Shown piece after piece: positions 611-23,364 of a stretch of 41,003 bases of DNA. The stretch comes from a virus, in the IMG/VR virus record IMGVR_UViG_3300049460_000214, positions 1 through 41,003 of that record; one strand, written 5' to 3'. Both the position numbers and the translations under genes were made by a program. The notes beneath the pieces were generated by a model that saw only the letters and a program-made list of their open reading frames with translations, made no database searches and was not told the DNA's origin. The stretch's first letter is position 1. Every line of letters starts with the position of its first letter.

Positions 611-642
611 GGAATGATCTTCGCCGAGCTGCTCCTACCGTC
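611..642 (+). promoter_or_regulatory. putative late promoter, copy 1 (GGAAYGATC-N16-TACCGTC)
   Basis: GGAATGATC (611-619) is followed by exactly 16 nt and then TACCGTC (636-642). The same arrangement occurs at 13076-13107 and 23333-23364. TACCGT fits an actinomycete -10 (TAnnnT), and the 9-mer occupies the -35 position. Here ACCCGC follows and the portal start is about 40 nt further on, so this transcript would have a short leader with a ribosome binding site, unlike the other two copies. Confidence 0.65.
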
Positions 643-682
643 ACCCGCACACCCCATCCACGGGAGCAGCGGGAGCCGACAC

Positions 683-2458
683 ATGGCCTGGTACCACGCC
701 TTCACGCGGCGCGGCGCGCTGCCCGCACTCACCCCCCACACCCCCACGCAGGCCAACGCGCTCACCGCCGCCGCAGCCCCCGTCACCAGCCCACGCAGCT
801 CCCTCATCCGCAACACCGACGGCTGGCAAGAAGAAGTCTGGGAGTTCCACGACACCCTCGGCGAATTCCGGTACGCCACCGACTGGGAAGCCAAGAGGCT
901 GTCCCGCGTCCGCCTCTACGCCGCCAAACTCGAACCCGGCGCCGACGAACCCGTACGCGCCGAAGCCGGACTAGCCGTCGACCTCCTCACCGCATTCGCC
1001 GGAGGCCCCGGCGGACAAGCCCAGATCATGGGCGGCCTCGCCACACAACTCCGCGTCCCCGGCGAGGGCTACCTCATCGTCGAAAACGTCAACGGCATCG
1101 AGAAGTGGTCGGTCCGCTCCATCGACGAAGTCCGCGTCGCACGCCAGCGGTACGAAGTCATCGACGAGAACAGCCCCCAGTCCGGCAACAACTGGCGCCC
1201 CCTCGCCCCCGACTCGATGGCACCCATCCGGGTGTGGCGTCCCAACAAGCGTTGGCACCACCTCGCCGACAGCTCTACCCGCGCCGCGCGCTCCACGATG
1301 CGCGAGCTGGAGCTCGTGAACCGGCACATCATCGCCCAATACCTCAGCCGCCTGGCGTCAGCGGGTGTCGTGCTCTTCCCGCAAGAAGTCACCTTCCCCG
1401 TCCGCGAGGAGTTCGCCGACGCGCCCGACCCGTTCATGGCCGAGTGGATCGAGATCGCGGCCGAGGCGATCCGTACGCCGGGCACTGCGGCAGCGATCGT
1501 GCCCATTCCGATGAAGCTGCCGGGTGAGTGGATCGACAAGGTCAAGCACGTCGACTTCACCCTGAAGATCGACGAGAAGATCATCGAGAAGCGGGACAGT
1601 GCGATCAAGCGGCTCGCCTCCCAGCTCAACGTGCCATCCGAAGTCCTCCTCGGCATGGGCGACCTGAACCATTGGAACGCCTGGATCAGCGACGAGACGT
1701 CGCTGAAAGTGGACGTCGCCCCCGATGCGGAACTGATCGCGCAAGCCATCACCACCGGCTATCTCCAGCCCCGCCTGAAGGCCAGCCACGTAGAGGACTG
1801 GGCGCAGTGGGTCGTCTGGTACGACATGTCCGAACTCACCCTCCGCCCCGACCGATCCGGCGACGCAGTACTGCTGTACGACCGCCTCGAAATCAACGGC
1901 GCCGCACTCCGCCGCGAAACCGGCTTCAACGAGGACGACAAGCCCACCGACGACGAACTGAAAGAACAGGGCCTCAAGGTCATCATCAAGACCTTCCCCA
2001 CCGCAGCCCCCGGCGCCCTCACCGAACTCACCGGCGAACAAGTCACCGTCGCCATAACCCCGCCAACCGCCCCCGGCACCCAGCCGGAACAGCAGCCCGC
2101 ACCGGAGGACCGCAGCCCGCCAAACCCGGACGCGGCGCGCCAGGCGGCGGCCGTACAGCGCGGCGAGTGGATGGCCCGGCAGGCGCAGGCCCTGCACGCC
2201 GTCCGATTCGCGACCGGCCGGCCGCCGGAACTCCTGCACCCGGATCTCTGCTCGCAGCACGCGCACAGCTGCCCGTTCACGCATGCCGCATTGAAGCTGC
2301 ACTCGCTTCCGAGGCCGGGGACGTCCGGCGTGTATGAGGCGCGGCTCGACCCCTTCGGTCGGTTCACGATTGGCCAGCTCTCCCCGCTACTGGACACCTC
2401 CTTCTTCTTCTCGACGACTCGGAGCAGCGCGAATGGTCTCGCTCACAGCCGCGGCTGA
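683..2458 (+). CDS. portal protein
   Basis: This 591-aa protein is the probable dodecameric portal at the capsid vertex, through which DNA enters and leaves. It has portal-type composition (helices, a central EKIIEKRDSAIKRLASQLNVPSE segment, a proline-rich tail) and it lies immediately upstream of a MuF/protease gene, the normal head-module order. I place the start at ATG 683 (MAWYHAFTRR) because GGGAG lies 7 nt upstream. An ATG at 614 is in frame but lies inside the promoter-like element. Residues 27-31 (LTAAA) match a motif that recurs in the next gene and in the capsid protein. The last 26 nt overlap the next gene. The role rests on family resemblance and order. Confidence 0.85.
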   Translation: MAWYHAFTRRGALPALTPHTPTQANALTAAAAPVTSPRSSLIRNTDGWQEEVWEFHDTLGEFRYATDWEAKRLSRVRLYAAKLEPGADEPVRAEAGLAVDLLTAFAGGPGGQAQIMGGLATQLRVPGEGYLIVENVNGIEKWSVRSIDEVRVARQRYEVIDENSPQSGNNWRPLAPDSMAPIRVWRPNKRWHHLADSSTRAARSTMRELELVNRHIIAQYLSRLASAGVVLFPQEVTFPVREEFADAPDPFMAEWIEIAAEAIRTPGTAAAIVPIPMKLPGEWIDKVKHVDFTLKIDEKIIEKRDSAIKRLASQLNVPSEVLLGMGDLNHWNAWISDETSLKVDVAPDAELIAQAITTGYLQPRLKASHVEDWAQWVVWYDMSELTLRPDRSGDAVLLYDRLEINGAALRRETGFNEDDKPTDDELKEQGLKVIIKTFPTAAPGALTELTGEQVTVAITPPTAPGTQPEQQPAPEDRSPPNPDAARQAAAVQRGEWMARQAQALHAVRFATGRPPELLHPDLCSQHAHSCPFTHAALKLHSLPRPGTSGVYEARLDPFGRFTIGQLSPLLDTSFFFSTTRSSANGLAHSRG

Positions 2459-5400
2459 CGGCTCGCACATGCAGGGCGCGATGATCGCGCTGATGCCGAC
2501 GCCGGAGGATGCGGCACGGCTGGCGATCGAGGGTGGCGAGGCCGCGGACCAGCTGCACCTGACGTTGCGGTACCTCGGCAAGGGTGCGGACTTTGACGAG
2601 GCGTCGCGTACCGCGATCGTCGACTCGGTGCGCCTGCTGGCGGAGGGGATGCCGCCGATCACGTCGAAGATTTTCGGGGCCGCGCACTGGAACGGGAACG
2701 GTGACGAGCCGTCGTGGGTGTGGTCGGTCGGCGACGACCCGGAGTACGGCCAGTCGCTGGAGGCCGCGCAGGGTATGGCGGAAGAGGCGCTGCTCATGGC
2801 GCCGATGGATGTGGAACTCCCGGCCCCACACACACCGTTTGTGGCGCACATCTGTGCCGCGTACTCCGACGAGTTGGACCTCATCATCCCGATGGAGGAG
2901 CGCCTCGGTCCGGTCACCTTCGACCGGGTGCGGGTGGCGTTCGCCGGGGACTACACCGATATCCCGCTCAGCGAAGGCGCGTTGACGGCCGCTGCCGATG
3001 GCCCGCTGCGCCGGAACCCCACCGAACTGGAGACCCGCTCCCGCGTCGATTTCGCCGCCATGGACAAGGCCTGGCATGAAGCCGTCAACGGAACCGTCGA
3101 AGCCTGGTCGGACGTCCAGAAGGCGCAGCGCGAGCAGATCACCGCCGCCGTGCAGGCCGCCGCCGAAGCCGACGACCTTTCCCGCCTTGACGGGCTCACG
3201 GTGGATAGTGCCGACGGTGAGCGTCTCCTCATCGCCCGCATGATCGCCTACGCGCGGGAGGCGGGCGATGCTCAGCAGGCCGAGGCCGAAGCGCAGGGCG
3301 TCACGGTTCCGGAGTGGTCGCTCGACGACGAGGCGCTCACCGCCGCCGCGATCCGGGACCGGCTGCGGCAGGTCGGACGCACGGCCGCCCGCGTACTGGG
3401 GACCGGGCTCGTGCAGTCCGCTGTGCGGCAGGCGATGCGCGTATGGGGCTCCGGCCCGGCCGACCAGGTCGCCGCGCAGGTCGACGAGCACCTCGCGTCA
3501 CTGTCGGGCGCGGCCGTCGAGGATCAGGTCGGCGGCGCCATGTCGGCGGCGCAGAACGAAGGCCGCATGGCCGTCCTCGCCGTCGCGCCGCCAGCCGAGT
3601 ACACAGCCACAGAGATATTGGACAAATCGTCATGTAAGCCATGTAGGGATATCGACGGCACCCGCTACACCACCCTCCCGGACGCCCGCACCGCATACCC
3701 GTCGGGTGGCTACACGGGCTGCCTGGGCGGTGCCCGCTGCCGGGGCACCCTCGTCACCGTCTGGCCGCAGGGCAGCGATCAGGCAGCCGCCGGAATGATC
3801 TTGGCGGCATCCGCGAACACAATGCCGCAGACCAACGAGCAGGGAGGCACCGTGCCGTACAGCATCGTGCAGGACCACCCGGACTGCGGTGCTGATACGC
3901 CGTGGGCCGTGGTGCAGACCGACACCGACGAACTCATGGGCTGCCACGACAGCGAGCCCGCAGCCGAGGAACAGCGCGCCGCCCTCATGGCCGAAGAAGG
4001 CGACATACCCAAGGACATGCCCAACAGCGACGGCATGGACTACGCGGGCAAGACCGCCCCCTGGCGCGGCCCCCTCGCCATCGAAGGTCAGGTCACCGGC
4101 GACGGCCGCGAGTTCGCCCCCGACGCACTCACGTGGGCCGAGCTTCCCGTACCGCTGCGGTGGAACAAGGAAGACTCCCACGGCGGCGACCCGAAGACCG
4201 TTGCCGTCAACGTCGGCCGCATCGACAAGATCTGGCGCGACGGCAGCCTCATCATGGGCGAAGGCGTCCTCGACCTCTCTGACGAAGACGGCCGCAAGGT
4301 GCACGGCAAGATCCTGGGCAAGTTCCTGCGCGGCGTCAGCATCGACGCCGACTCCATCGCCGACGCCGACGTCGAATTCGTGTGGCCCGAAGACGTCAAC
4401 GCGGGCACCGGAGACGGCGGCGAGGACGACCTGTTCGAGATGCTGTTCGCGCAGCCGGAGAAGATGATTTTCCACGGCGGCCGCATCCGCGCCGCGACCC
4501 TCGTCGACATCCCCGCCTTCGCCGAGGCGTACATCGCGCTCCTCGACGAAGCCGGCGCGGTCGTGGCCGGCGGCCAGCCGGTCGGCGCGGCCGCCCTCCT
4601 GGAGCTGGCGGCACAGGAGATGGGCGCGGTCGGCACGCACGACACCGCGACCTCCGACACGGCGTGGGACGCCGGGGCGAACGAAAAGCGCATCGACGGG
4701 CCACTGACGGTGGACAAGGCGCGGGCCGCATACGCCTGGTACGACGAGAGCGCGGTCGAGGGCGGCGAGATGCCCAAGTCCGCGGCGAAGTTCCTTCACC
4801 ACGAGATCAGCGCCGACGGCACCGCAGGACCGGCGAATCTGGCGGCGTGCTCGGCGTCGATCGGCGCCCTGCATGGTGCGCGCGGCGGCACCGGCATTCC
4901 GGAGGCGGACCGTCGCGGCGTGTACGACCACGTCGCCAAGCATCTGCGGGACGCCGGACAGGAGCCGGAACCGTTCCGGTCGCTGACATCCGTGACCGCC
5001 TCGGCCGACGTGTTCCGGCCGCCGGCCGCGTGGTTCGCCGACCCGAAGCTGTCCCTGCCGACGCCGATCACGGTGACGGACGACGGCCGGATCTACGGGC
5101 ACGCCGCACAGTGGGGCTCCTGCCACATCGGGCAGGACGATGTGTGCGTGCAGCCGCCGCACGAGGACGCCCACCCGTACTACCGCACCGGGGAGGTGGC
5201 GTGCGCGGACGGCACCCGGGTGGCGGTCGGTCAGATCACTGTCGGGACGGGGCACGCCCCGCTGCACTACGGGGCGTCCCCGGCGGCGGAGCACTACGAC
5301 AACACCGGTGCGGCCGTCGCCGATGTGGCGGTCGGCAACGACCAGCACGGCATCTGGGTTGCCGGGTCGATTCGGCCGGGTGCGGATCCGCTGCGCGTGT

Positions 5401-5663
5401 ACGAACTCCAGGCAGCCGGCCAGGTGTCGGGTGACTGGCGGCGGATCGGCGGTCAGCTGCGGCTGGTCGGGCTGCTGGCGGTGAATGTGCCGGGGTTCCC
5501 GGTGCCGAAGATGCGCGCCCGGGTGGCGAGCGGCGAGCCTCAGGCGCTGCTCGCGGCGGGCCGTCCGACGGTGGCGGGCGGTTTCTCGGCGGAGGAGTCG
5601 GAGCGTCAGGCGGTGCGGGTCGTGATGCGGATGCTGTCCCGCCGAGTCCACCCGGGGAGGTGA
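2433..5663 (+). CDS. 2H phosphoesterase-like / MuF / capsid maturation protease polyprotein
   Basis: A 1076-aa protein with at least four parts. Residues 12-180 resemble 2H phosphoesterases: H42-L-T44 is a clear HxT, but the second motif is H139-I-C141. Residues 190-457 are MuF-like, with the usual Cys module (C401, C404, C430, C436). Residues 535-740 resemble a prohead protease; H583 (SHGG) and S636 (RGVSID) are the likely catalytic pair. Residues about 753-846 and 860-1050 are two further domains seen in actinophage head proteases. MuF-protease fusions are known in actinophages. Start ATG 2433 has GGAG 8 nt upstream; the in-frame ATG 2334 would overlap the portal by 125 nt. Variants of [LV]TA[AS]A recur at residues 4, 184, 302, 457 and 854, close to most part boundaries, suggesting self-cleavage (inference). 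Confidence 0.85.
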   Translation: MVSLTAAADGSHMQGAMIALMPTPEDAARLAIEGGEAADQLHLTLRYLGKGADFDEASRTAIVDSVRLLAEGMPPITSKIFGAAHWNGNGDEPSWVWSVGDDPEYGQSLEAAQGMAEEALLMAPMDVELPAPHTPFVAHICAAYSDELDLIIPMEERLGPVTFDRVRVAFAGDYTDIPLSEGALTAAADGPLRRNPTELETRSRVDFAAMDKAWHEAVNGTVEAWSDVQKAQREQITAAVQAAAEADDLSRLDGLTVDSADGERLLIARMIAYAREAGDAQQAEAEAQGVTVPEWSLDDEALTAAAIRDRLRQVGRTAARVLGTGLVQSAVRQAMRVWGSGPADQVAAQVDEHLASLSGAAVEDQVGGAMSAAQNEGRMAVLAVAPPAEYTATEILDKSSCKPCRDIDGTRYTTLPDARTAYPSGGYTGCLGGARCRGTLVTVWPQGSDQAAAGMILAASANTMPQTNEQGGTVPYSIVQDHPDCGADTPWAVVQTDTDELMGCHDSEPAAEEQRAALMAEEGDIPKDMPNSDGMDYAGKTAPWRGPLAIEGQVTGDGREFAPDALTWAELPVPLRWNKEDSHGGDPKTVAVNVGRIDKIWRDGSLIMGEGVLDLSDEDGRKVHGKILGKFLRGVSIDADSIADADVEFVWPEDVNAGTGDGGEDDLFEMLFAQPEKMIFHGGRIRAATLVDIPAFAEAYIALLDEAGAVVAGGQPVGAAALLELAAQEMGAVGTHDTATSDTAWDAGANEKRIDGPLTVDKARAAYAWYDESAVEGGEMPKSAAKFLHHEISADGTAGPANLAACSASIGALHGARGGTGIPEADRRGVYDHVAKHLRDAGQEPEPFRSLTSVTASADVFRPPAAWFADPKLSLPTPITVTDDGRIYGHAAQWGSCHIGQDDVCVQPPHEDAHPYYRTGEVACADGTRVAVGQITVGTGHAPLHYGASPAAEHYDNTGAAVADVAVGNDQHGIWVAGSIRPGADPLRVYELQAAGQVSGDWRRIGGQLRLVGLLAVNVPGFPVPKMRARVASGEPQALLAAGRPTVAGGFSAEESERQAVRVVMRMLSRRVHPGR

Positions 5664-5669
5664 AAGCGA

Positions 5670-5732
5670 ATGTGCAGTTGCAATAAGAGGCGTCGTCCGA
5701 CACCCCCGCCGCCGCCCCCTCCGAGCGCCTGA
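5670..5732 (+). CDS. 20-residue Cys/Arg/Pro micro-protein
   Basis: A very short gene beginning MCSCNKRRR, followed by PT, seven prolines and SA. A strong ribosome binding site (GGGAGGTG, 5655-5662) lies 7 nt before ATG 5670, and the frame starts 7 nt after the protease stop. The order is therefore protease, micro-gene, hairpin, capsid. A CxC pair next to a basic patch and a polyproline tail suggests binding to nucleic acid or metal, or a role as a small virion or assembly component. The function is unknown. The strong ribosome binding site and tight spacing are the reasons to believe it is translated. Confidence 0.65.
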   Translation: MCSCNKRRRPTPPPPPPPSA

Positions 5733-5744
5733 CCTTTATTAATG

Positions 5745-5780
5745 CGGACCGGTGAAGAGAATTGACTCTTTGCCGGTCCG
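5745..5780 (+). other. 15-bp RNA hairpin between protease and capsid genes
   Basis: CGGACCGG (5745-5752) pairs with CCGGTCCG (5773-5780), and AAGAG (5755-5759) pairs with CTCTT (5766-5770). The two positions between them on each side form tandem U-G/G-U wobbles. In RNA this makes one continuous 15-bp stem with loop AAUUGA. No U-tract follows, so it may be a terminator, a processing site or an mRNA stabiliser that sets capsid expression apart from the protease gene. Confidence 0.6.
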
Positions 5781-5791
5781 TGTGCTATGCG
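5762..5791 (+). promoter_or_regulatory. possible sigma-70-type promoter for the capsid gene
   Basis: TTGACT (5762-5767), an 18-nt spacer and TATGCG (5786-5791) form a moderate match to an actinomycete housekeeping promoter. The -35 lies in the loop and descending arm of the hairpin at 5745-5780. It would give a leader of about 55-60 nt before the capsid start. Confidence 0.35.
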
Positions 5792-5855
5792 CTAGCCTTC
5801 GCAAACAAAGGGCGCCAAACCGCAAGGCGCACACCCCTTCACAGCGGAGGACTCA

Positions 5856-7613
5856 GTGCCCGAGGAACTCTTCAGCGCCCCGTCCGACCTCACCCTCATC
5901 GGTGACAGCGACCTCACCGAACTCGAAACCCGCGGCGCAGCAGAGTTCGCCCGCGTCGAAGCGATCGACAACGTCGACCCGGAGACGCTCCAGTACGCGA
6001 TGCGCCTCGCCGACGACCTCGACGCCATCCGCGCCGAACTCCGCGTCCGCGAAGTCCGCGCCCAGGCCAACGCCGACCTCCAGCGCACCCGCGTCGGCGA
6101 GCAGCTCGCCCAGCTCAAGGACCGCGTCCACGGCACCGACGGCCAGGGAACCCCGGCGAGTCAGGCCCCGGCCCCCGTCGACGCCGACGCCATCGCCGCC
6201 GCAGCCGCACAGGGCGTCGCAAGCGAGTTCGTCAAGATCTTCAGCAACGGCCGTAGCGGCAACGGACTCGGCGCCGTCGCCAAGCGCGCCACCGCCTCCC
6301 TCGCCGAGACCGCGCAGCACGCACCCGCCGCCAAGGTCCCCACCGCGCGCCTCGCCGTCACCGCGTCCGTCGACATTCCCGGCGTCGCCCGCGGCGAAGG
6401 CCTCACGAGCCTGACCGCCCTCGCCGACGTGACCGCCCGCAAGGCCAAGTCCATGCCGGTCACGCAGGGCCAGCCGTCCGAACAGCTCGTCGCGTCCATC
6501 CGCAACGACTTCTCCCACAGCGTCGACAACCGCACCACCCGCGGCGAGATGAAGGACCTCATCTCCTTCCTCACCGGCCCCGACAAGCAGGAAGCCCTCG
6601 TCGCAGGCGGCGGATGGTGCGCCCCGTCCGAGACCAGGTACGACTTCTTCAACATCGCCTGCGAGTCCGGCCTCATCGACCTGCCGACGTTCGGCGTCAC
6701 CCGCGGCGGCATCACGTTCCCCGTCAGCCCGTCGCTCGCCGACGCCCTCTCCGGGGGCACCGCGTTCGCCGGATTCGCCGCCACCCTCTCCAACACGTCG
6801 ACACCGTTCCTGTGGACCGAAGCCGACGACATCGCCGCCGCCACCGGCTCCCCGACCAAGCCCTGCATCCGCGTCCCCTGCTCAGACATGGACGAGGAGC
6901 GCCTGGAGGCGTACGGCTACTGCCTCACCGCAGGCAACCTCACCGACGACGCATGGCCTGAGGCCACACAGAACACCCTCCAGCTGCTGATGGCCGCGCA
7001 CGCGCACGTCATCAACGCCCGCCTCATCGCACTCATGCTCGCCCGCTCCGCCGCCACCACCACCATCACCGGCGGCGCCGTCACCGACGCCGCAGCCCCC
7101 CGCATCTACAACGCGGTCGGCCTCGCCGCCACCGACTACCGGGCCCGCTACGGCATGTGCATCGACGACGTCCTCGAAGTGATCCTTCCGTACTGGGCTC
7201 GCGACGTCATCCAGGCCGACCTCGCATGGAAGGCCGGAGTCGAACTCGGCGACATCCCGCTCAGCGAGGTCAACCGGTACTTCACCTCCCGCAACATCGC
7301 CGTCCAGTGGGTCAACGACTGGCAGGTCCGCGGCGCCTCGCAGTTCGGCAACGCCACGAACATGACCGCCTGGCCCACCACGGTCGACTTCCTCATCTAC
7401 GCGGCCGGCACGTTCATCCACGGCAACGGCATGACCCTCGACCTGGGTGTCATCCGCGACAGCGTGCTGAACGAGACGAACGACCACACGGCGGCCTGGT
7501 CCGAGGAGGCGCACCTCATCGCGCGCGTCGGCCACGAGTCCCGCCGGTACACGGTCGGCTTCAACGTCAACGGCTCCACGTCGGCGCTGCTGACCGGCAC
7601 CGTCCGCGTCTGA
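5856..7613 (+). CDS. major capsid protein with N-terminal delta (scaffold) domain
   Basis: A 585-aa probable HK97-fold shell protein. The first 170 residues are charged, helical and coiled-coil-like with an Ala/Pro linker, typical of a delta domain that guides assembly and is cleaved off. The rest (from MPVTQGQPSEQL, through FNIACESGLIDLPTFGVTRG, to TGTVRV) is a compact capsid-type domain of about 413 residues. Residues 168-173 (VTASVD) lie at the junction and match the motif at the boundaries of the protease polyprotein, so this is a good candidate maturation site. The GTG start at 5856 has GCGGAGG upstream. The mature part has at least six cysteines, unusual for an intracellularly assembled shell. 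Confidence 0.85.
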   Translation: MPEELFSAPSDLTLIGDSDLTELETRGAAEFARVEAIDNVDPETLQYAMRLADDLDAIRAELRVREVRAQANADLQRTRVGEQLAQLKDRVHGTDGQGTPASQAPAPVDADAIAAAAAQGVASEFVKIFSNGRSGNGLGAVAKRATASLAETAQHAPAAKVPTARLAVTASVDIPGVARGEGLTSLTALADVTARKAKSMPVTQGQPSEQLVASIRNDFSHSVDNRTTRGEMKDLISFLTGPDKQEALVAGGGWCAPSETRYDFFNIACESGLIDLPTFGVTRGGITFPVSPSLADALSGGTAFAGFAATLSNTSTPFLWTEADDIAAATGSPTKPCIRVPCSDMDEERLEAYGYCLTAGNLTDDAWPEATQNTLQLLMAAHAHVINARLIALMLARSAATTTITGGAVTDAAAPRIYNAVGLAATDYRARYGMCIDDVLEVILPYWARDVIQADLAWKAGVELGDIPLSEVNRYFTSRNIAVQWVNDWQVRGASQFGNATNMTAWPTTVDFLIYAAGTFIHGNGMTLDLGVIRDSVLNETNDHTAAWSEEAHLIARVGHESRRYTVGFNVNGSTSALLTGTVRV

Positions 7614-7662
7614 CCCGGTCCAGACCGTGAACCGTACCGACAACGAAGGGTGGTGAACGCGC

Positions 7663-8562
7663 GTGGCACGCCAGCTCATCGACCCGCCATCCGAGTTCAC
7701 CATCCTGCCGTACGGCCTGTGGGACAGCATCCAGCACCCCGCCGCTGCCGGACCGCACTGGCAGAACGGCATCACCTGGATCGAGCGCTGCCCGGACGGC
7801 GACACCACCTACGACGAATGCCTCACGGTCACCGGCACCGGCGCACCCCCGGAGCCGCCCGCGAAGACCGACAACACCACCCAGCAGCTCCGCGGCGCCA
7901 CCCCGTTCACCGTGTACGCCGAGTTCGACTGCTCACCAATCGGCCTGGCCGATGCGGCCACCATGGCCCGTGAGGCGCTTGCCCGGGTGGAGAAGACCCA
8001 GCTCGAACGGGCGTTCTTCACTGGCGTGGCAGGCGGCCAGAACGTGGTTTTCCCGCACCTTGCCGCCGATACCGAGGTCACGGATGCGCAGGGGATCATC
8101 CTGCAACCTGCGGCTTCTCCGATCGTCACCGGGTCGACCGTCGACATCACCGACGGCCTGGGCAGGCTCGAAAGTGAGCTGGCTAACTGCTACGGCGGCA
8201 GGGGCTATATCCATGTCCCGCACCGGGTCTTCCCGATGCTCGCCGCATGGAATCTCGCGATCGAACGTGACGGCGGCCTGTACACCCCGGCCGGTAACCG
8301 GATCGTCGTCGGAAACGGGTTTGCGAACTCTGCGCCGGACGGCGCCCCGCCCGAGGCCCGCACAGCGTGGGCCTACGCCACCGGCCAAGTGTTCGGCTAC
8401 CGCAGCGAGGTGCGGTTCACGCAGGCCGCAGAGTCCATCGACCGGGCCGCAAACACGTACAAGATGATCGCCGAACGCACGTATGTCATCGGTTTCGAGT
8501 GCTGCCTGATCGCCGTCCAGTTCGCCCTTGGTGTCATCCCCACCGGCGCAGTAATCCCGTAG
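7663..8562 (+). CDS. second head protein, capsid pentamer-like
   Basis: A 299-aa protein directly after the capsid gene. The opening (MARQLIDPPSEFTILPYGLW) and the segments CSPIGLADAATMAREALARV, YIHVPHRVFPMLAAW, FGYRSEV and AERTYVIGFE match a recurrent actinophage head protein that I understand is often interpreted as a capsid pentamer or other HK97-like shell component. The GTG start has GGGTGGTGA upstream. The family resemblance is clear to me, but the exact structural role (pentamer, decoration or minor capsid) cannot be read from the sequence. It has several cysteines, like its neighbours. Confidence 0.6.
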   Translation: MARQLIDPPSEFTILPYGLWDSIQHPAAAGPHWQNGITWIERCPDGDTTYDECLTVTGTGAPPEPPAKTDNTTQQLRGATPFTVYAEFDCSPIGLADAATMAREALARVEKTQLERAFFTGVAGGQNVVFPHLAADTEVTDAQGIILQPAASPIVTGSTVDITDGLGRLESELANCYGGRGYIHVPHRVFPMLAAWNLAIERDGGLYTPAGNRIVVGNGFANSAPDGAPPEARTAWAYATGQVFGYRSEVRFTQAAESIDRAANTYKMIAERTYVIGFECCLIAVQFALGVIPTGAVIP

Positions 8563-8571
8563 GAGACCGTC

Positions 8572-13075: not shown

Positions 13076-13107
13076 GGAACGATCATGACGTGGGGCGGCC
13101 TACCGTC
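13076..13107 (+). promoter_or_regulatory. putative late promoter, copy 2, leaderless
   Basis: GGAACGATC (13076-13084), 16 nt, TACCGTC (13101-13107). The -10-like TACCGT ends 7 nt before ATG 13114, so transcription would begin at or next to the start codon. There is no ribosome binding site in the intervening ACCCGC. The element occupies nearly the whole 42-nt gap between the gp10-like and chaperone genes. Confidence 0.7.
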
Positions 13108-13113
13108 ACCCGC

Positions 13114-13614
13114 ATGACCGAGCTGCTCACGTACCCGAACGGCGCCGCACCCGCCGCGCCTCCCCTCATGGCCGCAGCGGCACCGCCCGCAGCCCGCGAC
13201 TTCAGCCGCAAGCGCAAGCGCCTCAACTTCACCATTGACAGCGAAGAGTTCGACGCCGCCCCCGCACTCCCCGGCGACATCTACGCCGAGTTCGTCACCA
13301 TCTACAGCTCCACCGGTGAAACCGAGACATACCAGGACCAGCACGACGCCCTGAAGCGGGCCCTCGCCCTCGCCCTCATCGACGAGTCCTACGAACGCTT
13401 CCAGGCCCGCCTCCGCGACAAGACCAACCCCATCGAAGACGACCAGGTCGGCGACATCGTCCTATGGCTCCTGGAGGAGTACGGCATGCGCCCTACGCAG
13501 CCGTCTCCGGGCTCATCGGATGGGCCTGCCAGCCCGGCAACTGGCACGCCCTCGACGGCGAATACGCAGCCCGCGGAGTCGATTTCGGAAACCTCCCCGC
13601 CGACCGCTTCCTGA
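13114..13614 (+). CDS. tail assembly chaperone (upstream frame)
   Basis: A 166-aa protein with an Ala/Pro-rich head, a folded middle (RLNFTIDSEEFDAAPALPGD, then YDALKRALALALIDE-like helices) and a disordered Ser/Pro/Thr tail. It lies directly before the tape measure gene and overlaps an in-frame-shifted partner, as in the lambda G/GT arrangement. ATG 13114 is favoured because the -10-like box ends 7 nt upstream (leaderless). An alternative start at 13090 lies inside the promoter-like element. Confidence 0.65.
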   Translation: MTELLTYPNGAAPAAPPLMAAAAPPAARDFSRKRKRLNFTIDSEEFDAAPALPGDIYAEFVTIYSSTGETETYQDQHDALKRALALALIDESYERFQARLRDKTNPIEDDQVGDIVLWLLEEYGMRPTQPSPGSSDGPASPATGTPSTANTQPAESISETSPPTAS

Positions 13615-16800: not shown

Positions 16801-17767
16801 CGGTACTCGCGAGCAGATCTCCCGCACTGCGGCCGACATCGCCAACAGCATCACGAAGGCCTTCAGTAAGCGCAAGACCCGGGTCGACGACCGGCTTGTT
16901 GCCGCAGTCGCGTACGCCAACAAGCGTCTCCAGGCTCTGGCGGCCGAACGAGACAAGATCGCGCAGCGGATCGCCGACGCAAAGAAGTTCTCTGCGGATG
17001 TGGCGGAGCAGGCCAAGGGCGCGTTCTCCCTCCAGTCGATCACCCAGGGTCCTGCCGGGGTGAGCGGGGAAACCATCCGGCGCGGTCTCGCATCGGCGGC
17101 CGCGCAGATCCGCGAGTTCATCGGGCGCATCAACGTCCTGCGCAAGAAGGGCCTCAGCAAGGATCTCCTCGCGCAGATCATCGGCATGGGCCCGGAGGCT
17201 GGGCTTGAGTTCGCCAACGTCCTGTCGCGGCAGTCGGCCGATTCACTGCGCGAAATCAACCGGCTGCAAGGCCAGATCAACAAGGCGTCCACCAACTTGG
17301 GAAAGCTGAGCGCGGACGCCCTCTTCGACGCGGGCAAGCAGTCCGGGAAAGGCTTCCTCGCCGGGCTGGCGGGACAGCGCAAGCAGATCGAACAGCTCAT
17401 GCTGTCGATCGCGAAGAGCATGCAGGCCGCGATCCGTAAGGCGCTGGGCATCAAGTCCCCGTCCACGGTGATGGCGGAGGTGGGGCGGCAGTCGACCCTC
17501 GGTGTCGCCGTCGGCCTCGTTGACCAGCTGCCCGCTGTGAAGAAAGCCATGGGAGGGATCTCCCGCACCATCTCTGCCGGGATCGCAGCGCCGGGGCTTC
17601 CCGTATCGGTCTCTGCGGTGGGCCGCGGCGGAACAGCCCAGCAGGAGTCGATGAACGTCACGTTCATCAACCACGGGCCGATCGGATCCCGACGCGAACT
17701 CGACGACTGGCTCGTCGGATCGATGGACCGCCTGCGCCTGCAACGCCGCCTCCCGAAGGGGGCGTGA
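13835..17767 (+). CDS. tape measure protein
   Basis: A 1310-aa protein that sets tail length and is probably ejected with DNA. It has long helical stretches, hydrophobic segments (about residues 80-120 and 330-410), and a C-terminal region with YAGGGLVDGPGTETSDGVYA, FVVNAKRTRQYL and two LKISSPSKVM/GIKSPSTVM modules typical of tape measures. Residues 704-819 form four tandem 29-residue repeats. I chose ATG 13835 because it overlaps the previous stop by ATGA; an in-frame ATG at 13778 would overlap the chaperone by 61 nt. Confidence 0.9.
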   Translation: MSTPAGGVIGDATINVNANTTAAALAIRGLRRDAEGNLRDLRGRFVSESRLINGALTGVTDNTSRFGEAVEELRSSALLLAPALIPIAVQAAPIAASVGAAGAAIGVFAAAAAGQVTALTEAGEAEKKYQDAIDEHGRASKQATDAQAAYVRSVQKMPPATREAAAALSSFKDEYKSWSDSLAGDTMPVVTRGLQAFGAVFPKLTPIVQGAGVQLNRFVTIAAGGIQSPGFDRFMSSFAEFSTGALQRGNELLIRFLRTLDTGKISGGFSTFMDYVRDNGPVVRELLSSVMQALANMAQAAANVGPGLLTVVNVLAKLVAALPPDVITHMLQLALALKAVRLAAAAAAATSVGLTSFTASITAMRLAAGGATGVLPKLGAAIATLSRTAKVAIAGTGIGLLLIALTELSQRGRAAPPDVDKLTGSLAKLGSTGKVTGEAAKAFGGDLDGLHGKVKALTDPSTTDKVQQFLVGWTGWDSTPVKEAKENFGAVDTALANLVKNNQADLAAAAVKRLTAEYGAGGRNTKEFTSKLAEYKASLADAKFEQQLAADAMGLFGAQAQQTSAKLAEQKQSADGLRQAIQALNDVNRAGLGAMNAFEAAIDTTAKAAKDNAGALQFTNGELDLNSEKARSAEAALRDLASRTDEAQGAAREQGKSWSYVNGIYERGRQQLIANATQMGLTREQAAQLASEILRAPGTKTALLKADITDWKAKVSEAETQLKTAKGDKRAKLTADIADWKAKVAAADLQLKGAKADKRAKLTADVTDWRSKVAAAELQLRNAKGEKKATLKANIDDWRRKIGTAQLMINNLPPSKSTTLTVWKITKIRTDYVNSLARRGQSVHEAVGATGGLFTGKDFKHRGYAGGGLVDGPGTETSDGVYAPWLSKNEFVVNAKRTRQYLPLLKAINSGGMAAGAMAGGGMASAGMDAGRGLASGLSGAMSLVMAAAKAMAAVVETGVRQELKISSPSKVMQALAKDIGAGLIKGLTGTREQISRTAADIANSITKAFSKRKTRVDDRLVAAVAYANKRLQALAAERDKIAQRIADAKKFSADVAEQAKGAFSLQSITQGPAGVSGETIRRGLASAAAQIREFIGRINVLRKKGLSKDLLAQIIGMGPEAGLEFANVLSRQSADSLREINRLQGQINKASTNLGKLSADALFDAGKQSGKGFLAGLAGQRKQIEQLMLSIAKSMQAAIRKALGIKSPSTVMAEVGRQSTLGVAVGLVDQLPAVKKAMGGISRTISAGIAAPGLPVSVSAVGRGGTAQQESMNVTFINHGPIGSRRELDDWLVGSMDRLRLQRRLPKGA
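15944..16291 (+). repeat. four tandem 87-nt coding repeats in the tape measure gene
   Basis: Four units of 29 codons encode L[KT]A[DN]I.DWK.KV..A..QL..AKGDK.A. and start at 15944, 16031, 16118 and 16205. The first three are closely similar; the fourth keeps LKANIDDWRRKIGTAQ and then diverges. The regular spacing of Asp-Trp pairs suggests a repeating helical module. A change in copy number would change tail length by a fixed step. Confidence 0.85.
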
Positions 17768-19368
17768 TGGCCGCACCCCTGTACACGCTGACCATCGACT
17801 GGGACAACGACACGATCGTCACCGGCGGCAGCTACGAGGACGTCACCGACGACGTCCTTAACCAGGGCCGGTGGACCTATGGCTACGGCCGCGACCAGAA
17901 CCGGCAACTCTCCCCGTCATCGATCGGGAACAGCGCCTTCACCCTGTGTAACGCCGACCGGATCTACAGCCCCGAGAACACAGCCTCACCCCTCGTCGAC
18001 GACCTCGGCCCCGGACGGCCGGTCGCCATGGACGTCACCATCTCCGGCGTCGACCACGCCCTGTTCCGCGGCCGGATCGACGACTTCGACATCCACCCCG
18101 ACCGCTCCGACCGGACCGCCGACTTCACCGCCCTGGACGGACTGGCGGACCTGTCGAATGCCGACCTGTCCACCGCCCTCTACTCGGGGCTGCGTACAGG
18201 ACAGATCGTCGACGTCATCCTCGATGAGATCGGCTGGACAGGCGCGCGGGACATCGACGCCGGCGCCACCTATGCCCGGTTCTGGTGGGCGGAGAACACC
18301 GATGCACTGACGGCGGTCAACGATATTGTTGCCGCCGAGGGGCCGCCGGCGATCGCCTACATCGCACCGGACGGCACTTTCACGTTCCGGGACCGGCATC
18401 ACCGCATCGTGCGGACGGAATCCACTGTCCCTCAGGCCGTGTTCGCGGCGGAGCGGGTGACATGCGATGCGCCTGCGGTGACCGGCTCCAGCTACGACTA
18501 CACGGCGCCGTTCGAGTACCGGCACGGCTGGCGTGATGTGGTCAACACGGTGGACCAGGAGGTGAGCGACAGGGCCACCACGTTCGACACAAGCGTCGTG
18601 TGGTCGACCGACGGCATTTTCACCCTGTCGATCGGGGAGACGCGCGAGATCCGGGTGCAGGCATCGGACCCGTTCCGGGATGCGGTGACCCCCGTTGCGG
18701 GTACGGACTTCACGACGTCGGGTACGGGCGTGGTGTCGGCGGTCATCACGCGAACCTCCGGGCAGTCGACCATCATCAGACTGACGTCGGTCGGTGGCTC
18801 CTCGTCGATTCTCAGTCTCCAGCTGCGGGCCCGCCCGGTTCTCGTGGAGCGCACGGTGCGGGTGCGGGTGAGTGATCCCGGATCCATCGGAACGTTCGGC
18901 ATGAAGTCGTTTCCGAACACGATCCCTTACGCATCGCCCGCCGATGCGCAGGCTGTCGCCGAGGTGCTCGTCGCGGCCTATTCCAGCAGACGCCCGATCG
19001 TCAAAATGCGGGTGGTGTCGGGCGATATCCCGCATCTCCAGCAGATCGTGACACGCACCATCTCCGACATGCTCACCATCCGTAACGGTGAGCTGGGGCT
19101 CGACGCCGAGTTCCATGTGGAAAGCGTCGCGCACACCATCACCCGCATCCCCGGCGACGCCGACTGCGACGACTACGTTCCCGTGCATTCCGTGGTCTTC
19201 GGGTGCGAGAAAGTCCTGGAGGACTGCGCACCCAACCCGTTCACGTTCGACAAGACGGGGGCCGGGTTCAACGACGGCACGTTCGACGCGATCGGATGCA
19301 GCAGCCCGGACACGGTGTGGATCTGGGATGCCCAGTCGAAATTCAACGAGAACAACTTCGGGGTATAG
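17767..19368 (+). CDS. minor tail / distal tail protein
   Basis: A 533-aa protein after the tape measure, in the position of a distal-tail or hub protein. It begins MAAPLYTLTIDWDNDTIVTG with a tail-protein beta domain, followed by NADRIYSPENTASPL and LFRGRIDDFDIHPD, then a long central region and a C-terminus with DMLTIRNGELGLDAEFHVES and VAHTITRIPGD. ATG 17767 overlaps the tape measure stop (TGATG); GTG 17764 is also possible. GGGGG a few nt upstream can serve as the ribosome binding site. The exact baseplate role is inferred from order. Confidence 0.65.
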   Translation: MAAPLYTLTIDWDNDTIVTGGSYEDVTDDVLNQGRWTYGYGRDQNRQLSPSSIGNSAFTLCNADRIYSPENTASPLVDDLGPGRPVAMDVTISGVDHALFRGRIDDFDIHPDRSDRTADFTALDGLADLSNADLSTALYSGLRTGQIVDVILDEIGWTGARDIDAGATYARFWWAENTDALTAVNDIVAAEGPPAIAYIAPDGTFTFRDRHHRIVRTESTVPQAVFAAERVTCDAPAVTGSSYDYTAPFEYRHGWRDVVNTVDQEVSDRATTFDTSVVWSTDGIFTLSIGETREIRVQASDPFRDAVTPVAGTDFTTSGTGVVSAVITRTSGQSTIIRLTSVGGSSSILSLQLRARPVLVERTVRVRVSDPGSIGTFGMKSFPNTIPYASPADAQAVAEVLVAAYSSRRPIVKMRVVSGDIPHLQQIVTRTISDMLTIRNGELGLDAEFHVESVAHTITRIPGDADCDDYVPVHSVVFGCEKVLEDCAPNPFTFDKTGAGFNDGTFDAIGCSSPDTVWIWDAQSKFNENNFGV

Positions 19369-19370
19369 GC

Positions 19371-19721
19371 ATGAACCTTTTGGTGCAGACCGCGCGGGCG
19401 TACGTGTACGCAGGCAACTGGGTGGCCGACTGCCCGGCCTCGTGCGGAAACGTCGAGCTGCTCCACGAAGCCGCCGTCCGTGGTGGCGCACTGGTGCGGA
19501 AGAAGGCGGCGTTCCACTGCTCGTATTGCAACTTCGAAACGCAGGCGATCGAGTGGCCGCCGAACGAGCACGAGATCACAGAGGTGCTCGCCCGGCGCCC
19601 GATCCCCCACACCCGTAACTGGTATCCGGCGGAACACGCTGCCGCGATCCGCTTCCGGATCCCGCACGGACAGAGCGTGCAAGACCTCGTCGACGAGAAC
19701 ATTGAGAACGGGGTGCTCTAG
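19371..19721 (+). CDS. zinc-ribbon-like minor tail-associated protein
   Basis: A 116-aa protein starting at ATG 19371, two nt after the preceding stop, with GGGG about 9 nt upstream. It has CPASC near residue 22 and FHCSYC near residue 45, a C-x3-C / C-x2-C arrangement that could hold zinc, followed by IPHTRNWYPAEHAAAIRFRI and a helix. I do not recognise the family. Its location between two tail genes suggests a virion or assembly role. Its last four nt overlap the stop of the opposing HNH gene. Confidence 0.6.
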   Translation: MNLLVQTARAYVYAGNWVADCPASCGNVELLHEAAVRGGALVRKKAAFHCSYCNFETQAIEWPPNEHEITEVLARRPIPHTRNWYPAEHAAAIRFRIPHGQSVQDLVDENIENGVL

Positions 19722-20233
19722 TGGCTGCCTTCGGCTTCGCGCTCTCGACGAGTCTTCTGGGAGGCACGCATCCTCGCGCGCGCCTCGGGGGTGTGCCTGC
19801 GACCCAGGGCGTGGTCCCGCGCATGCTTGGACTGTGTCGTTTTCTCCAGGTTCTCCAAGCGGTCATCCGCCGGATCCTCATTGAGGTGGTGGATCACATC
19901 GCCGGGCAATACCGGATCCTCGGGGTGCGCCGTGTTCCACACGTACTGATATCGCTGGATGTAACCGTCTTTACGCATCGTGGGGTGCAGGTGCCGCTCC
20001 ACATCGGGGACTCGGACAAATATGCGGCCCTCGTCGCTGGTCCACTGACCTCCCGCCCAGTTGGGGTTGGCTTCACCCCGGGTCTTCTTCGAGATCTTTG
20101 CTTTGACCTCGGGGGTCATGCGTCCTGGGGCCTTGTTGGCGCAGGCTCGGGAGCAGCAGTTGGGGAGTTTCCCGACAGTGTGGATCCGAGTGAACGTGAC
20201 TCCGCAAACGGGGCATTCCTTGGTCGTTTTCAC
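19718..20233 (-). CDS. HNH homing endonuclease
   Basis: A 171-aa leftward gene inside a rightward tail module. The N-terminal zinc-knuckle-like region has C7, C10, C26/C27 and C31. TPEVKAKISKKTRGEANPNW and HTPEARARMRASQKTRRERE look like NUMOD-type DNA-binding elements. The core VIHHLNEDPADDRLENLEK (H115, H116, N128, with H137 after it) is a classical HNH motif. The start is GTG 20233 without an obvious ribosome binding site. Free-standing HNH genes of this type are mobile and cut unoccupied alleles. The gene sits directly upstream of a tail gene that appears to lack its normal start codon. Confidence 0.85.
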   Translation of the reverse strand: MKTTKECPVCGVTFTRIHTVGKLPNCCSRACANKAPGRMTPEVKAKISKKTRGEANPNWAGGQWTSDEGRIFVRVPDVERHLHPTMRKDGYIQRYQYVWNTAHPEDPVLPGDVIHHLNEDPADDRLENLEKTTQSKHARDHALGRRHTPEARARMRASQKTRREREAEGSH

Positions 20234-20273
20234 AAGGCCATTCTAATAGACAGCCAGAGAGGGGGCGGTCCAA

Positions 20274-20813
20274 ATTAGCTGGACGGCGCCAATGACCGCG
20301 GTGGCCAACACCGTCTTCACCGCAGCACAATTCAACCTCCACGTCCGCGACAACCTCAACGAGACCGCACCAGCGAAAGCCACACAGATCAGTTCCATTT
20401 TCGTCGGCAACGGGCTCAACTCGATCGTCGAACGACTGCCCCAGGTTGACAACGTGGCAACTTCAGAGACCACCGCGAGCACTTCGTACACAGACCTTGC
20501 GACGGTCGGACCGAGCGTCACCACCGCCACCGGCGCCCGCGCCCTCGTATTCGTGCGAGTGGCCACGGACAACACCGGGGCGAACAACGGCAACTTCATG
20601 TCCTGGGACGTGACGGGGGCCAGCACTTTGGCGGCATCGGACAACCAGGCATGCAACTTCGCGGGCGTCGCGGCGGCGACCCGAAACCGCCTGACCTCCG
20701 CATACCTGATCAGCTCCCTGACCCCAGGCACCAACACGTTCACCGCGAAATACAAGGTGACCGCAGGGACGGGCACATTCCTCGCCCGCCAGATCGCCGT
20801 CATCCCCTTCTAG
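20274..20813 (+). CDS. minor tail protein, apparently with an ATT start
   Basis: Encodes a 179-aa protein if started at ATT 20274 (M-SWTAPMTAVANTVFTAAQFN), or 173 aa from ATG 20292. Actinophage proteins of this type usually begin M-x-W-x-A-P and then have FTAAQFNLHVRDNLNETAPA, so the natural N-terminus lies at ATT 20274. A strong ribosome binding site (GAGAGGGGGCGG, 20256-20267) is spaced correctly for 20274 and is more than 20 nt too far from 20292. An in-frame TAG at 20247 excludes starts further upstream. The rest is beta-rich, with a C-terminal jelly-roll feel. It is followed by the sialidase gene. Confidence 0.7.
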   Translation: MSWTAPMTAVANTVFTAAQFNLHVRDNLNETAPAKATQISSIFVGNGLNSIVERLPQVDNVATSETTASTSYTDLATVGPSVTTATGARALVFVRVATDNTGANNGNFMSWDVTGASTLAASDNQACNFAGVAAATRNRLTSAYLISSLTPGTNTFTAKYKVTAGTGTFLARQIAVIPF

Positions 20814-20820
20814 GAGACCC

Positions 20821-21891
20821 ATGCCCATCCTGTTCACCTCCGGCACCGGCGGCTACCACACCTACCGCATCCCCGCCCTCACGCAAGCCCCGGACGGCAC
20901 GCTGATCGCGTTCGCCGAGGGGCGCAAGAACGGCGGCGGGGACAGCGGCGACATCGACATCGTGTGCCGCCGCTCCACCGACGGCGGCGCGAGCTGGTCG
21001 CCACAGCAGATCGTCACCGCCCACGGTGGTGACACTGCCGGCAACCCGACCGTGGTCACCGACCCGACGTCCGGGGACCTGGTACTCCTGTCGTGCCGCA
21101 ACGCCGGCGCCGCCACCGAGACGACCATCCTGAAGGGCCTCGACGTACGACAGGTATACGTCCAGCGCAGCGCCGACAGCGGCGCCACCTGGACTGATCC
21201 CGTCGACATCACCGGGCAGACCAAGACATCGTGGATGCGCTGGTACGCCACCGGCCCGGGCTGCGGTGCGGCTGTCACCCAAGGACCGCACGCGGGACGG
21301 CTCGTCATCCCCGCCAACCACTCCCGTGCTCCCGCATCCGGGAGCAGCGACACGGGCACCGAAGCGAAGTACCTCGGCGCCCACAGCCTGGTCTCCGACG
21401 ACGGCGGCCACACCTGGCAGATCGGCTACACCTCGTCGAACCCCAACGGCAGCACCAACGAGAACGAGACCACCTGCGCCGAGCTCCCCGACGGGCGCCT
21501 GTACTTCAACTGCCGAAACCAGTACGGCACCGTGGCCGGCACTCGTGCGGATGCCTGGTCGGTGGACGGTGGCAGCACGTTGCAGTATGCGTTCCGGGTG
21601 CAGGGCACGATCGTCACGCCGGTAGTGCAGGGCAGCGTGTTGCAGGTGCCGGGCGGCCCGCTGCTGTACGCGGGGCCCGAGCATCCTGACTGGCGGGTGG
21701 CGATGGTGATCCGCCGTAGCGATGACGGCGGGGGGACGTGGCGGACATGCCGGAAAATCACTGGGCTGCATGCCGCGTATTCGTCGCTGGCGATGCTGGA
21801 TGCGGTGACGGTCGGCTTGCTGTATGAGACGGGGGACTGGGCTCCGTACAGCCGGATCGAGTTGGCCGCCGTGCCGGTTGCGGAGCTGTGA
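20821..21891 (+). CDS. exo-alpha-sialidase-like (GH33) tail protein
   Basis: A 356-aa six-bladed propeller of the sialidase family, which removes terminal sialic or related nonulosonic acids. It shows YRIP (R16), EGR (R35), GDSGDID (catalytic Asp 41 or 44), four Asp boxes (STDGGASW 52-59, SADSGATW 117-124, SDDGGHTW 192-199, SDDGGGTW 300-307), Glu 217/221 before LPDGRLYFNCRN (R232), R292 and LLYETGDW with the expected nucleophile Tyr 335. No signal peptide is visible, consistent with a virion part. It lies between tail and lysis genes and starts 7 nt after the preceding stop with AGGAG upstream. The catalytic set looks complete, so I expect an active enzyme. The substrate is unknown. Confidence 0.8.
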   Translation: MPILFTSGTGGYHTYRIPALTQAPDGTLIAFAEGRKNGGGDSGDIDIVCRRSTDGGASWSPQQIVTAHGGDTAGNPTVVTDPTSGDLVLLSCRNAGAATETTILKGLDVRQVYVQRSADSGATWTDPVDITGQTKTSWMRWYATGPGCGAAVTQGPHAGRLVIPANHSRAPASGSSDTGTEAKYLGAHSLVSDDGGHTWQIGYTSSNPNGSTNENETTCAELPDGRLYFNCRNQYGTVAGTRADAWSVDGGSTLQYAFRVQGTIVTPVVQGSVLQVPGGPLLYAGPEHPDWRVAMVIRRSDDGGGTWRTCRKITGLHAAYSSLAMLDAVTVGLLYETGDWAPYSRIELAAVPVAEL

Positions 21892-21895
21892 TCTG

Positions 21896-22708
21896 ATGCG
21901 CCTCGTCACGCGGGCGGCACTCGGCTGGCCTGCATCTGCCGCGCCCTTGCAGGCCGTCACGCAGGGCGTGAAGGTCCACTACGAGGGCACGCCCGTCAGT
22001 GCCGAGCTGCTCACCGACCATGCCGCGTGCATCGCCGAGTGGCAGGCCATCCGCAAGTCGCACCTCGCCAACACGACCGAGAACTACTCGGACGTCGCCT
22101 ACAACTACGCGGCCTGCCCGCACGGCTACCTCCTCGAGGGCCGCGGCATCGGTAAGCGCACCGGCGCCAACGGCAACCAGGAGCTCAACCGGGCGCACTA
22201 CGCGATCGTCGGCCTCGTCGGCGACGAAGGCCTCACCGAGCCGACCGACGCCATGCTCTCCGCCATCCGCGACGGCATCGACCTGCTGCGGAAGAACGGC
22301 GCGGGCACTGAGATCAAGGGCCACCGGGACGGCTACGCAACCGAATGCCCCGGCGGTCCGCTGTACGCGTGGGTTCAGAAGGGCGCCCCGCGACCCACCA
22401 CTGAGGAGGACGACGTGACCCCTGACGACATCACGAAGATCGCTACGGCGACGGCGGCGGCGACCGCGACCAAGCTCATCGCGGGCGGGGGCGTTCTCGA
22501 GAACAGCGATGTGGCCCGCGTCGCGGCGGCCGTGGCCGCGAAGCTCCAGCCCATCGAGGCCGCGCAGAACGCCACGATCGACAAGCTCGTCGGCGCCGTC
22601 GCCACCCTCGCGGCGAACGTCGGCGGCCTGGACCCGGCGGCGATCGTCGCCGAACTCCGTGCCGCCATCGAGGCCATCACCATCCACCTCGACGTACCCG
22701 ACGCCTGA
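21896..22708 (+). CDS. endolysin, N-acetylmuramoyl-L-alanine amidase
   Basis: A 270-aa lysis enzyme that cuts the bond between muramic acid and the peptide stem. The N-terminal half is an Amidase_2/PGRP domain with zinc ligands H28 (KVHYEG), H143 and C151 (GHRDGYATECPGG; spacing as in T7 lysozyme), plus DVAYNYAACPHGYLLEGRG. The C-terminal 100 residues are Ala-rich helices, not a classical LysM or PG-binding domain, and may bind the wall or form oligomers. ATG 21896 follows GGAG by about 10 nt. The holin gene comes next. Confidence 0.85.
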   Translation: MRLVTRAALGWPASAAPLQAVTQGVKVHYEGTPVSAELLTDHAACIAEWQAIRKSHLANTTENYSDVAYNYAACPHGYLLEGRGIGKRTGANGNQELNRAHYAIVGLVGDEGLTEPTDAMLSAIRDGIDLLRKNGAGTEIKGHRDGYATECPGGPLYAWVQKGAPRPTTEEDDVTPDDITKIATATAAATATKLIAGGGVLENSDVARVAAAVAAKLQPIEAAQNATIDKLVGAVATLAANVGGLDPAAIVAELRAAIEAITIHLDVPDA

Positions 22709-22726
22709 CCAGGAAGCGAGCAGACC

Positions 22727-23059
22727 ATGAAGATCTTCGGCAGAGAGCCAGCACTCATTGTCAGCACGATCAGCGCCGTCCTGTCGCTGATCGTCACCTT
22801 CAACATCGGCATGTCCGGCGAGCAGGCCGGAGCGATCGTCGCCATCATCTCCGCCGTGTTCGGTGCGATCGTGGCGGCAGCGACCCGGCCGGTCGCCCCG
22901 TCTGCGTTCACCGCCGTGGTAGCTGCTGGCGCCGCACTCCTGGCTGCGTACGGGCTGGACGTGTCGGCGGAGACGGTGGGTGCGACGAACGCGGTCGTCC
23001 TGGCACTGCTCGCGCTGCTGACGCGCGGCCAGGTCTCTCCGAAGGGAGTCGCAGCGTGA
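22727..23059 (+). CDS. holin
   Basis: A 110-aa membrane protein with three to four hydrophobic segments (about residues 9-27, 34-52, 60-76 and 84-98) and a short charged N-terminus (MKIFGREP). It lies directly after the amidase gene with AGGAAGCGAG upstream. Small multi-span proteins in this position act as holins that release the endolysin. The stop overlaps the next start by GTGA. Confidence 0.75.
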   Translation: MKIFGREPALIVSTISAVLSLIVTFNIGMSGEQAGAIVAIISAVFGAIVAAATRPVAPSAFTAVVAAGAALLAAYGLDVSAETVGATNAVVLALLALLTRGQVSPKGVAA

Positions 23060-23322
23060 ACAGCCCTCTGGACAATCGGATGCGCGCCATCGCCCGCGAG
23101 GAAGCCAACGCCCTCCTCGGCGTCCCCGGCGGCGTACAGGCGGCGGCCGGCTCCGAGCCGACCGCCAGTCAGATGCAGCAGCAGATCACCGACCTGCACG
23201 AGCACCTGCACCACGCCGCCACCACTATCAGTCGACTGGAGGCACGCATCGGCGCGCTGGAGAAAGCTGACAAGTCGAACGACCAGGCGGCACGGCGCAC
23301 GGCACGCAAGACCGTCGGGTAG
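23056..23322 (+). CDS. small coiled-coil protein of the lysis cassette
   Basis: An 88-aa hydrophilic protein with a coiled coil (QMQQQITDLHEHLHHAATTI, then SRLEARIGALEKA) and a basic tail. It starts at GTG 23056, overlapping the holin stop. Proteins of this kind often accompany actinophage holins, perhaps as partners or antiholins. The role is inferred from context only. Confidence 0.6.
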   Translation: MNSPLDNRMRAIAREEANALLGVPGGVQAAAGSEPTASQMQQQITDLHEHLHHAATTISRLEARIGALEKADKSNDQAARRTARKTVG

Positions 23323-23332
23323 CCCCCACTCC

Positions 23333-23364
23333 GGAATGATCTTCTCGGGCTGCCTAATACCGTC
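23333..23364 (+). promoter_or_regulatory. putative late promoter, copy 3, leaderless
   Basis: GGAATGATC (23333-23341), 16 nt, TACCGTC (23358-23364). TACCGT ends 7 nt before GTG 23371, the same distance as in copy 2, so the glycosyltransferase mRNA would be leaderless. No ribosome binding site is present in the CCGCTC that separates the box from the start codon. Confidence 0.7.

Follow-up and report, generated by a model that had tools for sequence, protein, structure and literature searches.

A conserved, often leaderless promoter class of uncultured Streptomyces-type phages, with a linked WhiB-like protein as its probable specificity factor

Introduction

Which signal switches on the virion genes of an uncultured Streptomyces-type phage, and which protein reads it? 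This question is raised by IMG/VR record IMGVR_UViG_3300049460_000214, a 41-kb viral contig that carries an integrase gene and that we analysed over its full length of 41,003 nucleotides (nt), hereafter called the window. The element GGAAYGATC-N16-TACCGTC is repeated in it, ahead of genes for the portal protein, a tail assembly chaperone and a glycosyltransferase. A first-pass annotation, made from the letters alone, had taken this element for a phage-specific late promoter class distinct from the promoters of extracytoplasmic function (ECF) sigma factors. Among cultured phages, the window has no near relative except for one tail gene, and a literature search with the literal motif string returned unrelated papers only. 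We report that the element almost certainly represents a genuine and conserved promoter class, and we propose that a phage-encoded WhiB-like protein probably gives this class its specificity.

Results

An exact pattern search recovered the three copies with identical spacing reported at 611, 13076 and 23333 (sites A, B and C; Table 1), all on the plus strand. No match was obtained in 100 dinucleotide-preserving shuffles of the window, in line with the chance count of about zero that the first-pass annotation had expected, and allowing three mismatches revealed no extra full-pattern site in the window. At sites B and C, TACCGT ends exactly 7 nt ahead of the start codon, an ATG and a GTG, respectively, as had been claimed. 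Site A differs in having a leader of 33 to 34 nt with a GGGAG sequence before the ATG of the portal gene. A further copy of the -35 part, overlooked in the first pass, is located within the protease gene (site D).

The -10 part has the sequence trait of HrdB/sigma70-type promoters, i.e., a TAnnnT hexamer, present 6 to 7 nt ahead of the start codon. The TTGAC-like -35 box of such promoters is replaced by GGAANGATC, whose position is constant across phages. Given a start codon 6 to 7 nt past the -10 hexamer, chaperone-type transcripts should be leaderless. Leaderless mRNAs are common in Streptomyces, with 264 mapped cases of leaders under 10 nt in S. coelicolor (PMC4681348), which makes leaderless phage mRNAs plausible there. 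An ECF sigma promoter of the form GGAA(C/T)-N16/17-CGTC was considered and rejected, the distance from GGAA to CGTC being 24 nt.

Exact matches occurred in at least 117 stretches in a scan of viral contigs, with many of these stretches sharing a contig. Some lone matches in unrelated or AT-rich contigs are due to chance, as 16 specified bases were sought in a very large collection, and our conclusions are independent of them. An ATG or GTG was found exactly 7 nt past TACCGT in 78 of 123 matched sites, a set that includes some duplicates and some chance matches; offset 6 occurred in 8 to 10 sites, and the other offsets mostly in 0 to 3 sites each. The element was present in all 50 records searched, with up to four copies each that were mostly on a single strand, and the reversed pattern gave one match in total. 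In 17 relatives read as sequence, site A precedes the portal gene and site B the chaperone gene, at positions shared with the window. The -10 hexamer of site A varies among these relatives (TACCCT, TACCGT, TAGCCT or TAACCT). Site C precedes the gene of a small CxxC protein or that of a glycosyltransferase, and a site E, found in some relatives, precedes an epimerase-like gene with CACCCT, CATCCT or TACCGT as its -10. The element is thus kept at syntenic places; its presence before portal and tail genes of related phages had been named as a check in the first-pass annotation.

A set blind to the motif was obtained by collecting chaperone relatives through protein similarity and then reading the DNA upstream of their genes (80 viral loci). 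A fixed rule, namely the element plus a TAnnnT or CAnnnT -10 and an ATG at 7 or 6 nt, held at 52 of these loci, with the ATG at +7 in 40 and at +6 in 12. By chaperone identity, the rule held for 16 of 17 loci at 60% or more, 6 of 6 at 50 to 59%, 28 of 34 at 40 to 49%, and 2 of 23 below 40%. By reading, the element or a near variant that falls outside the rule was also seen at L302, L315, L321, L322, L342, L343, L353 and L362. Among relatives whose chaperone is at least 41% identical, nearly all have the element at the fixed distance ahead of this gene. The consensus is GGAA[T/C/A]GATC[A/T]T with a spacer of 16 or 17 nt and, 6 to 7 nt before the start codon, one of the hexamers TACCGT, TACGGT, TAGCGT, TAGCCT, TAACCT and TACCCT. 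Among cultured phages, a blastn search with this consensus returned weak, chance-level matches only, and the complete element was not found in phiC31, in Xula, or in Mischief19 and TurkishDelight, of which the first 50 kb were covered. Two distant loci with a diverged, ribbon-tailed WhiB-like protein (L344 and L345) have a different conserved region upstream of the chaperone gene, CTAGTACG..GGTCACCACACTGGGAGG, which is Shine-Dalgarno (SD)-led.

All 18 genomes have site D (GGAATGATC-N17-CACAAT), in which the codons GGA, TTG and ACA are invariant wherever the amino acid is retained. These include rare ones, as GGA represents 9.8% of Gly codons and TTG 6.8% of Leu codons. Among 63 conserved Gly columns, that of site D alone is fixed as GGA. 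At the Y base, the encoded residue is methionine in some genomes and threonine in others, which suggests conservation of the DNA and not of the protein alone. An SD-like sequence and an in-frame GTG or ATG follow in all 18 genomes. The simplest reading of this arrangement is that a putative promoter within the gene would give rise to a shorter protease product.

The element appears to be confined to phages and other mobile DNA. In a scan that covered 84,980 species genomes, a stricter form of the motif gave 12 matches, 11 of them in Streptomyces. Of 393 Streptomyces genomes, 4 had the strict motif, and of 31 searched for the loose motif, only the one with a satellite-like element had it; the controls gave 0 in both cases. 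All Streptomyces matches examined lie within prophages or satellite-like elements. Strains with a prophage of this group include S. caniscabiei NE06-02D, Streptomyces sp. A012304 and Streptomyces sp. 549. This rarity, together with the location in mobile DNA, argues that the element is not a host promoter class. The proposal of a phage-specific class is therefore upheld by the fixed syntenic places, the leaderless geometry, a -10 that varies only within TAnnnT or CAnnnT, and the lack of the element in host chromosomes except in mobile DNA. Late timing is likely, judging from the genes that the element precedes, i.e., those for the portal, the protease, the tail chaperone and other tail-region genes.

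A gene for a WhiB-like (Wbl) protein lies on the opposite strand directly past the late genes. Of 20 records, 19 have it, and the remaining one ends before its place; distant relatives have it as well. In total, all 41 element-bearing records that extend to this position contain the gene, as do 3 of 10 larger element-free records; as the records are related, the corresponding p value of 1e-6 is descriptive and not a fair probability. The protein has the hallmarks of the Wbl family, with cysteines C24, C48, C51 and C57 (C-x(n)-C-x2-C-x5-C) and a GYWGG turn (G-x-WGG). Its C-terminal, KCPxC..CxxCGxSW-like tail is retained down to about 31% identity. The predicted structure (mean predicted local distance difference test score, 82) best matched, among Protein Data Bank (PDB) entries, WhiB3, WhiB and WhiB1 complexed with sigma region 4 or RNA polymerase (probability 1.00, E ~1e-3). 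No close relative of this protein or of the chaperone was found in cultured phages. Many of these phages also carry a second, distinct WhiB-like gene (G007_73 cluster, 10 of 18 genomes).

Eight Streptomyces genomes (loci L254-L270) contain single or paired leaderless copies in satellite-like elements. These elements carry genes for small terminase (TerS)-like proteins, the one in G057 being 66% identical to a gene of the phages, and for a tape measure protein homologous to those of the phages, with up to 54% identity over 1332 amino acids (aa). Most also have recognisable integrase, XRE-type and replication genes. No matches to portal, capsid or large terminase (TerL) queries were found in them. 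Their gene content is that of phage satellites, which are defined by an integrase, their own packaging specificity and an incomplete set of virion genes. In G055, the copies are at contig ends, and no tape measure match was found there. In three of the genomes (G051, G054 and G055), a satellite-like element occurs together with a phage of the group. The other five (G052, G053, G056, G057 and G071) have the element and no phage of the group, and no WhiB-like gene with a ribbon tail was found in these genomes. That this gene is missing where the phage is missing fits satellites that rely on the factor of a helper. The satellite-like elements themselves carry no such WhiB gene. Under the shared promoter, they also have a leaderless gene that is HTH_17-like and about 290 aa long.

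The other genes of the window are listed in Table 1. The chaperone gene is in the syntenic position ahead of the tape measure gene. The intein of the glycosyltransferase was recognised by LAGLIDADG_3 (E=1.8e-16), with Intein_splicing slightly below cut-off; in most relatives, the glycosyltransferase gene is shorter and lacks the LAGLIDADG intein.

Table 1. Predicted promoter elements and genes of the window
Feature	Position	Strand	Basis or details
Site A, predicted portal operon promoter	611..642	+	-35 part 611-619, -10 TACCGT 636-641
Predicted transcription start of site A	~649	+	leadered, GGGAG 671-675, ATG 683
Portal protein	683..2458	+	phrog_776 E=5.5e-121
MuF-like/capsid maturation protease fusion, 1076 aa	2433..5663	+	same-place gene so annotated in Mischief19, TurkishDelight
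Site D, internal promoter-like element in protease gene	3792..3823	+	GGAATGATC-N17-CACAAT
GGGAGG (putative ribosome-binding site) with GTG 3852 as in-frame internal start, past site D	3842..3854	+	sequence
Major head protein	5856..7613	+	phrog_777 E=4.2e-124
Site B, predicted leaderless promoter of the chaperone gene	13076..13107	+	-35 part 13076-13084, -10 13101-13106
Tail assembly chaperone, predicted leaderless from ATG 13114	13114..13614	+	30% identity to annotated Cece, DSL-LC01 chaperones
Site C, predicted leaderless promoter of the glycosyltransferase gene	23333..23364	+	-10 23358-23363, GTG 23371
Glycosyltransferase with intein insertion	23371..25542	+	phrog_7162 E=1.2e-24
WhiB-like protein with C-terminal CPxC..CxxC (zinc-ribbon-like) tail	25843..26244	-	Pfam WhiB E=1.4e-11
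Small winged-helix protein, upstream of WhiB-like gene, same direction	26259..26504	-	DprA_WH-like E=9e-4, under curated cut-off

Discussion

We propose that these elements are late promoters of a phage class whose specificity is most likely conferred by the WhiB-like protein, an account that we consider probable. The -10 (TAnnnT, sometimes CAnnnT) would be read by the host HrdB-type RNA polymerase, and the 9-bp GGAANGATC, at -38 to -30, would substitute for the TTGAC -35 box. Transcription would start 7 nt, sometimes 6 nt, past the -10, on the A or G of the start codon. Leaderless mRNAs would be made for the chaperone, the glycosyltransferase or CxxC protein and the epimerase, and those of the portal gene and of the internal protease start would be SD-led. 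The WhiB domain of the phage protein would hold region 4 of HrdB; recognition of GGAANGATC would fall to the basic linker and the zinc-ribbon-like tail of this protein, perhaps together with the neighbouring winged-helix protein. Activation by the WhiB-like protein is the best-supported mechanism, and we rate it as reasonably probable. In the satellite-like islands, the promoter would let the factor of the helper turn on their own packaging and tail genes. The chances appear evenly balanced for the broadest form of the proposal, in which a zinc-ribbon-tailed phage WhiB protein would be a dedicated late activator that appropriates HrdB through GGAANGATC to express leaderless virion genes across a broad actinophage clade, and would be exploited by tape-measure satellites devoid of WhiB.

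Several points weigh against this proposal. Shared ancestry links the element-bearing phages and their WhiB-like genes, so that their co-occurrence is not independent evidence. Three element-free records (G480, G481 and G484) still have a diverged WhiB-like gene with the ribbon tail. WhiB-like genes are widespread in actinobacteriophages, and the only one studied during infection by the time of a 2021 survey, that of TM4, acts as an inhibitor (PMC8612146). Finally, the DNA could be read by the winged-helix protein on its own or by some other conserved protein of the phage.

The same promoters might thus depend on a different phage specificity factor, the winged-helix protein or an unrecognised activator, with the WhiB-like protein only regulating lysogeny or host genes, as the inhibitory role of the TM4 protein might suggest. 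The winged-helix gene is directly upstream of the WhiB-like gene in the same direction. However, it was found in 13 of 18 genomes, one of the remaining five genomes being truncated, and it is not adjacent to the WhiB-like gene in distant phages. No regulator-like gene other than the WhiB-like one was seen in all records that extend to its position. Ahead of the operon formed by the two genes, a CATAAT box and an ATTCA-N14-TGAAT inverted repeat (~26505-26560, minus strand) are conserved in relatives. This region is a possible autoregulated operator, and the winged-helix protein may act there on its own operon. We consider this alternative unlikely, and the winged-helix protein is a possible partner or autoregulator in the proposal that we favour.

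The involvement of an alternative sigma factor, encoded by the phage or the host and recognising GGAANGATC as its -35, is suggested by the initial GGAA, which is reminiscent of ECF promoters, and by a phiC31 gene annotated as a sigma factor. Nevertheless, no sigma region 2 or 4 domain was detected above cut-off in these phages, which agrees with the first-pass view that the promoter is not of the ECF type, and the GGAA-to-CGTC distance exceeds ECF spacing. The element is missing from host chromosomes, so no host regulon uses it, and variation of the -10 as TAnnnT is typical of the principal sigma factor. An alternative sigma factor is therefore very improbable. Least plausible of all is a conserved operator or a packaging or replication site ahead of genes, which would account for a repeated, oriented element confined to one phage clade but not for the fixed distance of 6 to 7 nt between the -10 and the start codon, changes of the -10 that stay within TAnnnT, a single orientation that agrees with every downstream gene, or the copy inside a coding sequence that precedes a separate ribosome-binding site.

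The favoured WhiB-based mechanism resembles the middle promoters of T4, where a phage factor (AsiA/MotA) acts on sigma region 4 and a phage box replaces the -35 while the -10 is kept (PMC7403470). The restriction of our element and its linkage to a WhiB-like gene are consistent with sigma appropriation of this type. In contrast with T4, the proposed factor is unrelated to AsiA and MotA, being WhiB-like and zinc-ribbon-like. Its box would be GGAANGATC, the genes served are virion genes, and leaderless transcripts are predicted for many of them. There is also a likeness to the activation of HrdB/SigA promoters by WhiA-WhiB in Streptomyces and by WhiB7 in mycobacteria (PDB 8dy7, 8dy9 and 7kif). 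Unlike those factors, the protein described here is encoded by a phage, its CPxC..CxxC tail replaces the AT-hook or WhiA, and its putative target is a different element, missing from host chromosomes.

The satellite-like elements appear to have copied the phage promoter signal. They have in common with known phage satellites, i.e., phage-inducible chromosomal islands (PICIs), PLE and Mulch/Flayer, an integrase, a small-terminase-like gene and an incomplete set of virion genes, and putative tape measure genes occur in PLE and cf-PICI satellites (PMC12987554). Compared with Mulch/Flayer (PMC10690885), the Streptomyces elements have a tape measure gene and a small-terminase-like gene without portal, capsid or large terminase genes. 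They differ from known satellites in carrying the phage-type leaderless promoter.

A nine-letter signal in place of the -35 box thus probably switches on the virion-building genes in a large group of uncultured Streptomyces-type viruses, whose virion operons the element marks. With the DNA element defined and a WhiB-like gene linked to it, both a target and a role can be tested directly, and leaderless translation of virion genes is an additional testable point. The element also points to a satellite-like family that probably depends on these phages.
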